From contig CAIQIZ010000020.1 of assembly GCA_903872035.1 (NCBI GenBank), positions 1 through 53,858 on the forward strand: 53,858 nucleotides of DNA, given 5' to 3'. Source of the stretch: an uncultured bacterium (lineage in GTDB: Bacteria; Patescibacteriota; Minisyncoccia; Phycocordibacterales; PALSA-1337). The position numbers and the translations under genes were made by a program. Positions 45,857 to 48,083 of the stretch are shown in pieces; the first letter of the stretch is position 1, and each line of letters starts with the position of its first letter. Under the pieces are notes generated by a model. It had not been told where the DNA came from. It did no database searches and was given only the letters and a program-made list of their open reading frames with translations.

Positions 45857-45913
45857 TTTATATCATTATATGAAACGTATCCACTGCTTATGGTGCCTAA
45901 GTCAAGGATGTGC

Positions 45914-45928
45914 GATATGATTCAAATA
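45914..45928 (+). promoter_or_regulatory. -10 box that fixes the Pif1 start, leaderless
   Basis: TATGAT (45916-45921) ends 6 nt before the ATG at 45928. A GTG at 45910 in the same frame lies upstream of this box and is less likely. Confidence 0.5.
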
Positions 45929-47523
45929 TGAAAGCTTCGCCTACCACCAAATCCCCCCTAACTTGGAGTCCGGAAGCTATGGAAGCACTGCGGATCATGA
46001 ATGAGACCGGCGAGGATCTATTCTTGACCGGAAGGGCGGGGACGGGGAAGTCGACACTGCTCACGGAATTCCGCAGGCAGACCAAGAAGCGTGTGGCGGT
46101 GCTGGCGCCGACAGGAGTGGCGGCGGTCAATGTGGGCGGGCAGACCATACATTCATTCTGCGGATTCAAGCCAGATATCACTCTGAAGAAAGTTAAAAAG
46201 CTCGGCGCTGACAGCAAGAAGGCCAAGGTCCTCGATAGGCTCGACACCATCATTGTCGATGAGATATCCATGACACGGGCGGACATCTTGGATTGCTTCG
46301 AGAAATTCTTGCGCGTAAATAGGAGGGGCAAAGACGGCGGTCCCGGCCGGCCCTTCGGCGGCATACAGATGATCTTCATCGGCGATCTCTACCAATTGCC
46401 ACCGGTCGTCGCATCGTCGGAGAAGCAGGCATTCGAGACGCTTTACAAGAGCCCGTATTTCTTCGACGCCAAATCTTTCGATCATGGCAAATTCCATTTC
46501 ATCGAGCTGGAGAAAGTCTATCGCCAGTCAGATGGGAATTTCATCCGTCTCTTGAATTCCATCAGGAACAATAGTGTGGGCGATGCGGAGTTCGCGGAAT
46601 TGAATGTGAGATATGAGGCGGGCAGCAAAAGCAGGGGCATGAAAAGTGCTGCTAAGGGGAAGATCAAAGTCTGTCTGACATCCACCAACGCCAAAGCCAC
46701 AGAGATAAACGAAGCCAAACTGGACGAATTGCCGGGCAATGAAATCGTCTTTACTGCCACAGTATCAGGGAGATTCGAGCGTTCGCACATGCCGACTGAC
46801 GAAGTCTTACGACTCAAAGAAGGAGCACAAGTCATGCTTCTCAACAATGACGCTGAAGGCAGATGGGTCAACGGGACAATGGGAGTCGTCGAGGGAATAG
46901 ATGAATTCGAGGGAATAACTGTAAAGTTGGAGACTGGCGATAGCTATGTCGTCACCGAGAATGAGTGGGACGTCTTCGAATACCGCGTGGAAGGAGGAGA
47001 TCTGCGGACATCGACAGTCGGCTCATTTACCCAGTATCCATTGAAGCTGGCTTGGGCGCTGACCATCCACAAGAGCCAAGGTAAGACTTTCGACGAAGTG
47101 GTCATAGACTTGGGCCGGGGGACATTCGCTCACGGACAGCTGTATGTGGCGCTCTCCAGATGCCGAACTTTAGGCGGGATAACTCTCCGTCAGCCGCTCC
47201 GCAAGCAACATGTCATCATGGATTGGCGGGTAGTGCGCTTCGTCACATCGCTCCAATACGCCAAGTCTGAAGAGATATGCTCCATAGACGAGCGCATCGG
47301 CATGATTGAAAAGGCCATCGCTACCGGCTCGGCCCTCGCGATCACTTACCTCAAGAACAATGACGAGAAATCGCGTCGAGTCATCGAACCGCAAAAGATC
47401 GGCGAGATGGAATTCAAAGGAGAGAAGTATTTGGGAGTTGAGGCATATTGCCGCTTGCGTAAGTCGGTCAGAGTCTTCCGGGTAGATAGGATGGTGGAGA
47501 TGAGGGAAGTAACAACGCATTGA
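45928..47523 (+). CDS. Pif1-like DNA helicase with C-terminal WYL-like domain
   Basis: 531 aa SF1B 5'-3' helicase. Motif I LTGRAGTGKSTLL, Ia VAVLAPTGVAAVNVGGQTIH, II IIVDEISMTRAD, III FIGDLYQLPPV, IV VYRQSD, and V/VI ALTIHKSQGKTFDEVVIDLG with YVALSRCRTLGGI. After the helicase core, residues 469-531 (ITYLKNNDEKSRRVIEPQKI, GEKYLGVEAYCRLRKSVRVF, RVDRM) match the strand pattern of a WYL domain, a ligand-binding module found in regulators and defence genes. The helicase may thus respond to a nucleic-acid or nucleotide ligand. Confidence 0.88.
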   Translation: MKASPTTKSPLTWSPEAMEALRIMNETGEDLFLTGRAGTGKSTLLTEFRRQTKKRVAVLAPTGVAAVNVGGQTIHSFCGFKPDITLKKVKKLGADSKKAKVLDRLDTIIVDEISMTRADILDCFEKFLRVNRRGKDGGPGRPFGGIQMIFIGDLYQLPPVVASSEKQAFETLYKSPYFFDAKSFDHGKFHFIELEKVYRQSDGNFIRLLNSIRNNSVGDAEFAELNVRYEAGSKSRGMKSAAKGKIKVCLTSTNAKATEINEAKLDELPGNEIVFTATVSGRFERSHMPTDEVLRLKEGAQVMLLNNDAEGRWVNGTMGVVEGIDEFEGITVKLETGDSYVVTENEWDVFEYRVEGGDLRTSTVGSFTQYPLKLAWALTIHKSQGKTFDEVVIDLGRGTFAHGQLYVALSRCRTLGGITLRQPLRKQHVIMDWRVVRFVTSLQYAKSEEICSIDERIGMIEKAIATGSALAITYLKNNDEKSRRVIEPQKIGEMEFKGEKYLGVEAYCRLRKSVRVFRVDRMVEMREVTTH

Positions 47524-47549
47524 CTTTGAGCTCATTTGGGCCATATAAT
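47520..47549 (+). promoter_or_regulatory. Consensus-like promoter of the candidate small RNA
   Basis: TTGACT, an 18-nt spacer and TATAAT (47544-47549). The -35 box overlaps the Pif1 stop codon. The predicted start, seven bases after TATAAT, is G47556, the first base of the RNA's closing stem. It is one of the best matches to a sigma70 promoter in the window. Confidence 0.65.
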
Positions 47550-47555
47550 ACTGGC

Positions 47556-47629
47556 GTGTCCGTGGGCGCAAGCCCCTTTCGATCAAATCGTGACGGACAC
47601 ATCAAAGAGCCTCTGAAAAGGGGTTTTTT
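47556..47629 (+). ncRNA. Candidate structured small RNA, about 74 nt
   Basis: The sequence folds into a three-way junction: P1 GTGTCCGT (47556-47563) with ACGGACAC (47593-47600); P2 GGGC-GCAA-GCCC (47564-47575), a GNRA tetraloop; P3 CGAT-CAA-ATCG (47580-47590). A terminator-like CCTC-TGAAAA-GGGG and six T residues follow. CCCCTTT (47573-47579) can also pair with AAAGGGG (47617-47623), which would break P2 and the terminator, so a switch is possible. The downstream gene is on the other strand, so this is a free-standing RNA or the 3' end of the helicase mRNA. It matches no RNA family I recognise. Confidence 0.5.
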
Positions 47630-47634
47630 GATGT

Positions 47635-48018
47635 CTACTTTACATTCATGACGCTCCAGAAGTGCATTTTGCCATTACCGATCCGTCGGACGATGACTCT
47701 TATTTTGAGAGTACCTTTGCCTATAGTAGCGCATAGTGCCCAGTATTCGCTCTTATCGATCTTCCTATGACTCTCGATCATTGATGCTTTAATAAGAACA
47801 GTCCTAACATGAGGCAGAAAGTTGAGCTTATGTACCTGTTCTGCCTGTGTTCGTGCTTTGTGCTCCAAATGAAAACGCAAGTGGTTGAATCCGTCGGTAG
47901 TGAATGAGATCGTCTCATTCAAGCAGGGACAAAAAAGCGGAGTAAATCTTTTATACTCCGCCCGGCGCTTCTTAAGTAATTTATAATACTGGTCAGGTGG
48001 CAATTTATTTTGTATCAA
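47635..48018 (-). CDS. Possible BECR-fold (barnase/EndoU/RelE-like) nuclease
   Basis: 127 aa, basic. The pattern FTTDGFNHLRFHLEHKARTQ, EQVHKLNFLPHVRTVL, YWALCATIG and IRVIVRRIGNGKMHFWSVMN recalls small phage-type barnase-EndoU-ColicinE5/D-RelE-like nuclease domains, with candidate catalytic His in FNHL, Arg in VRRIG and His in MHFWSV. No antitoxin gene is adjacent. The family assignment is from memory of the pattern and needs a profile search; otherwise it is a hypothetical protein. Confidence 0.4.
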   Translation of the reverse strand: MIQNKLPPDQYYKLLKKRRAEYKRFTPLFCPCLNETISFTTDGFNHLRFHLEHKARTQAEQVHKLNFLPHVRTVLIKASMIESHRKIDKSEYWALCATIGKGTLKIRVIVRRIGNGKMHFWSVMNVK

Positions 48019-48083
48019 AAAACACCGCGGTGCGATGTCCTTTGAGGAAAATTATATACCTATAGATGATTGGGTCAAGAAGA

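Follow-up and report, generated by a model that had tools for sequence, protein, structure and literature searches.

Does the DNA at positions 47520-47632 of a 53,858-nt contig from an uncultured member of the Patescibacteriota (the window) encode a structured RNA, and if so, with what does that RNA act? A first-pass annotation of the sequence had pointed to a new small RNA with its own promoter and terminator, and had named an Rfam search and the detection of homologues with compensatory stem changes as checks. All of the proposed elements are present (Table 1): the near-consensus promoter, the 8-bp closing stem (P1) that begins at the predicted RNA start seven bases past the -10 box, two inner hairpins (P2 and P3), one of them capped by GCAA, and a terminator hairpin ending in a T6 run. 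The 113-nt region has a folding z-score of -4.7, which was equalled by none of 200 shuffled sequences, and covariance model R1 matches 47556-47609 with 55.5 bits, the window sequence itself being part of the seed. Simple scans were uninformative on their own, returning 2 promoters against 2.0 expected and missing the terminator. No family in Rfam 15 matches the RNA even at E<=5 or any other part of the window, and the same search of 17 loci from relatives returned tRNAs and one sub-threshold match overlapping tRNAs. A tRNA or tmRNA identity was rejected, since none was detected in the window.

Table 1 Features of the RNA and of its partner gene, in window positions.
Feature	Position	Strand	Remarks
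RNA promoter TTGACT-18 nt-TATAAT	47520..47549 (TTGACT 47520-47525; TATAAT 47544-47549)	+	11/12 consensus matches
Structured RNA, three-way junction and terminator	47556..47632	+	predicted start 47556
P1 5' strand GTGTCCGT	47556..47563	+	partner strand 47593-47600; compensatory changes in 5/8 pairs
P2 hairpin GGGC-GCAA-GCCC	47564..47575	+	compensatory changes in 3/4 pairs
P3 hairpin CGAT-CAA-ATCG	47580..47590	+	compensatory changes in 3/4 pairs
P1 3' strand ACGGACAC	47593..47600	+	partner strand 47556-47563
Terminator-like hairpin with T6 (47624-47629)	47601..47632	+	T-run hairpins 3' of the RNA in homologues too
Gene of the 127-aa partner protein, a putative RNase toxin resembling LPD3/BECR	47635..48018	-	TTG start uncertain
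Promoter-like site of partner gene TTGACC-16 nt-TATAAT	48051..48078	-	11/12 consensus matches only

A DNA search of 60 relatives yielded the first homologue as a single 38-nt match. This locus contains the same RNA, with P1 and P3 altered yet still pairing, and a convergent gene just past the RNA that is a homologue of the opposite-strand open reading frame in the window; it was the reading of this locus that led to the recognition of the partner protein. Homologues of the RNA occur in many Patescibacteria (CPR), and, when subfamilies were aligned separately, each of the three stems showed compensatory changes. In the first nine RNAs, 99% of the cells in the alignment are paired and 11 of 16 pairs show compensatory changes, a result matched by none of 500 shuffles. 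A second subfamily consisted of 26 RNAs from outside the seed; RNAalifold again gave a three-way junction of this kind, and 11 of its 16 pairs were compensatory. A third set of 20 RNAs displayed 10 of 12. The second set was excised by fitting to a pairing pattern and the third by visual inspection, both of which favour pairing at the ends. With no match in Rfam and covariation in three subfamilies, the proposal of a new structured small RNA is strongly supported.

Over the three alignments, 91 cells are G-U and 3 are A-C, indicating that the strand read from the promoter is the functional one. The promoter scores above threshold in 52 of 76 homologous loci, compared with 6% in a shuffled null, and its placement is shared by most of them: in 41 of the 52 promoter-bearing loci, 14-15 nt separate the end of the -10 box from P2, so that transcription is predicted to begin with the first base of P1.

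The pairing of the RNA with the convergent gene is near-obligate. About 105 of 110 family genes face an RNA tail-to-tail, an approximate figure that includes calls made by eye. A protein-only search of named genomes, blind to the RNA, gave 26 loci, and R1 found an RNA in all 26; because the query subfamily is the closest to the R1 seed and two of the loci lie on the same contigs as seed loci, this result tests linkage rather than the sensitivity of the model. At one of the 26 (L108), the gene is broken and its position with respect to the RNA has been rearranged. At class- and phylum-level loci, R1 detected the RNA in 35 of 45. The three-way-junction pattern fits 80 of the 110 gene 3' flanks, a few of these fits being misplaced and excluded from later analyses, against 8% of shuffles, 14% of opposite strands and 8% of upstream regions; the remaining flanks, read by eye, contain the RNA in all but a few cases. 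In genome G043, the RNA is clearly upstream of the gene and divergent at two loci (L018 and L081), with a partial resemblance at a third (L082), indicating that the RNA can act in trans. The first-pass annotation had correctly placed a minus-strand neighbour downstream, but it used this gene merely to argue that the RNA is not a leader and missed its role as a constant partner.

The partner belongs to an unnamed family of proteins of 120-190 aa. Homologues of the 127-aa protein were found in 33 of 119 genomes searched, often several per genome, and a profile search gave about 50 distinct members. Residues G43, H46 and R56 are invariant, while Y22, F120 and S122 are nearly so. The window protein has no Pfam match, but 17 of 46 family members match LPD3 (PF18798) at E<=0.1, the best at 7.7e-8; an LPD3 profile scan of 116 genomes gave nothing above the curated cut-off. 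PADLOC, PHROGs, NCBIfam and PDB sequences contained no convincing match for the family, and PBECR4 was not found in the phylum. Confident AlphaFold models (mean pLDDT 89 and 90) consist of helices and then four strands; the conserved His (H46) sits at a short helix and the Ser (S122) in the last strand. In a structure search against viral proteins, the top matches included LPD3 domains of phages (probability 1.00, TMq ~0.6, E 0.014), and Foldseek against the PDB gave no significant structural match. BECR RNases are described as having a helix-plus-four-strand layout with a His in the helix and a Ser in strand 4 (PMC5512222), a description that the modelled family matches as a pattern alone. 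In sequence, fold and His/Ser placement, the family resembles the LPD3 domain and the PBECR RNases found in polyvalent proteins of phages (PMC5512222); unlike them, it stands alone on the chromosome and is partnered by an RNA. This remote similarity suggests that the partner protein may be an RNase. The protein profile also matches G212:C11:2331-2678, within a 1772-aa open frame that is possibly a large polyvalent protein.

RNA and protein vary together. Over 74 loci, RNA and protein distances are correlated with a Mantel rho of 0.63 (permutation maximum 0.15), to which shared host ancestry may contribute in part, although different subtypes co-occur within one genome, as seen for the window copy and the copy on C17. 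Loss is asymmetric. Among 31 strong R1 matches in relatives, 12 lack an intact family gene, and one of the 12 keeps a remnant; these counts depend on a model whose training set came mainly from a single subfamily. Several genes beside RNAs are truncated or frameshifted, and family genes without any RNA were hardly seen. RNAs without genes, but hardly genes without RNAs, are what is expected of an antitoxin, which can outlive its toxin, while the reverse does not hold.

We consider it reasonably probable that the structured RNA and the small LPD3/BECR-like protein constitute a two-component module in which an RNA antitoxin binds and inhibits an RNase-like toxin; the RNA is probably the antidote, and the pair would represent a new kind of RNA-protein toxin-antitoxin system. 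In such a module, an RNA of ~77 nt and the protein gene would be arranged tail-to-tail with separate promoters. The strong promoter would drive synthesis of the RNA, which would adopt the compact P1-P2-P3 three-way junction and end at its own terminator. The RNA would then bind the protein directly and in trans, blocking an RNA-binding or RNA-cleaving face. A drop in RNA synthesis, upon loss of the locus, stress or takeover of transcription by a phage, would free the putative toxin and arrest the cell.

An unlikely alternative is that the protein needs the RNA as a cofactor or guide and forms an active ribonucleoprotein with it, for example a defence effector. Near-obligate co-occurrence and co-variation fit this reading equally well, and an RNA needed as a cofactor would give much the same pattern as an antitoxin RNA. 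However, the persistence of RNAs without the gene in 12 of 31 cases is not expected of a cofactor, and the alignments display no obvious variable guide segment in the loops or junctions.

Less probable still is control of a type I-like antisense kind, in which the RNA would pair with the mRNA of the gene and block its translation or destabilise it. The convergent layout, with RNA and gene on opposite strands as in type I systems, is compatible with such control, and overlap between the terminator hairpin and the mRNA 3' end is possible. However, comparison of the RNA core with the start of its own gene at 37 loci revealed no preferential pairing (mean z -0.02), the conserved feature is structure rather than complementarity, and the upstream, divergent RNA of G043 excludes overlap there. 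The absence of cognate pairing in start regions and the divergent layout make antisense control unlikely. The protein, folded and 120-190 aa long, is also unlike the small membrane peptides of type I systems.

That the RNA is a free-standing housekeeping or regulatory RNA which adjoins the gene family by chance is very improbable. Orphan RNAs do exist (the 12 of 31 above), but the finding of an RNA at all 26 protein-selected loci, in differing surroundings, comes near to refuting this explanation, and the helicase that adjoins the module in the window has no module downstream in two relatives. Least credible of all is the two-state leader or attenuator implied by the alternative states of the first-pass annotation: the CCCCTTT/AAAGGGG complement does exist in the window, but its pairing is not conserved among relatives (full 7-nt match in 0 of 74 loci in the register tested, where the window reaches 6/7 and the relatives listed reach 4/7), and the RNA has its own promoter and terminator with the next same-strand gene starting only at ~48100, grounds on which a riboswitch or leader identity was likewise rejected.

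The favoured toxin-antitoxin reading invites comparison with type III systems, in which a folded RNA binds and neutralises a toxin protein (PMC5086642). There, the RNA gene lies upstream of the toxin gene in one operon with a terminator between them, the antitoxin RNA consists of tandem repeats, and the toxins belong to the ToxN, CptN and TenpN families (PMC5086642). The present module resembles ToxIN, CptIN and TenpIN in combining a small putative endoribonuclease gene with a structured RNA, in that RNA types follow protein types, and in that a few loci contain two units per transcript. In contrast, the RNA here lies on the opposite strand with its own promoter, tail-to-tail in nearly all loci (divergent in G043); it is mostly a single unit, with two-unit transcripts only at L009 and L066 and two separate RNAs at L051; it forms a three-way junction, for which the model neither sought nor required a pseudoknot; and the putative toxin is LPD3/BECR-like rather than ToxN. 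No match between the partner protein and the ToxN, CptN or TenpN families was found in Pfam, NCBIfam, PADLOC or PDB. By analogy, the module would work like a type III system, yet it departs from that type in gene order, repeats and toxin family.

The AvcID system (PMC10511110), in which RNA AvcI is paired with the deoxycytidylate deaminase AvcD, offers a precedent for an RNA antitoxin with a protein partner that is not ToxN-like; in this comparison of the protein partners, the protein type is unrelated to that described here.

We lean slightly towards regarding these modules as a new class of RNA-protein toxin-antitoxin (or defence) systems in Patescibacteria, unrelated to type III, that combines three-way-junction RNA antitoxins with LPD3/BECR-type RNase toxins in a tail-to-tail arrangement and occurs in about one in ten of the genomes sampled across the phylum. 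Wider sampling recovered the protein family from 39 of 286 class-level genomes and from 30 of the 287 taken across the phylum, and named contigs with the family are mostly of the Parcubacteria group (Taylorbacteria, Nomurabacteria, Yonathbacteria, Wolfebacteria and Staskawiczbacteria). The RNA is an uncatalogued family with strong covariation that is spread over the Patescibacteria, nearly all of which are uncultured and have very small genomes, and its constant protein partner makes its function testable with two short genes. If the proposed mechanism is true, protein-binding RNA antitoxins would have arisen with a different toxin fold and in a different gene layout, and the phage LPD3 domains, to which PMC5512222 assigns no function, would gain a likely one. 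A literature search whose scope lay outside subscription papers and preprints found nothing on an RNA-protein pair of this kind in CPR.

With regard to the genomic surroundings, the helicase in the window (45910-47523) is PIF1-like with a C-terminal WYL domain and has matches in just two further genomes of the genus at E<=1e-60; membership of the RNA in a helicase operon was rejected on the two relatives mentioned above. Carriage as phage or plasmid cargo was also rejected, as the proteins queried gave no matches in IMG/VR, PLSDB or INPHARED. Three loci with the module (L092, L093 and L101) are on contigs labelled Rhodospirillales, Deltaproteobacteria and Thermoanaerobaculum, which may be mis-binned CPR or cases of transfer.

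Several loci differ in the number of RNAs. At L009 and L066, a single promoter and a single terminator enclose two tandem RNA units, which converge on a family gene; those of L066 (region 1853-2000, G000:C17) are in the same genome as the window. At L051 (1266-1572), two successive RNAs, each with its own promoter and terminator, lie opposite one family gene. The genome of the window contains an extra RNA at L064 2057-2126 (G000:C25:14556-14625), with no recognisable family gene alongside. At L052, an orphan RNA (1501-1569) is convergent with two small genes at 1628-2254 that appear HicA/HicB-like by eye, and Pfam gives one weak UPF0150-like (HicB-type) match, to one of the two genes.
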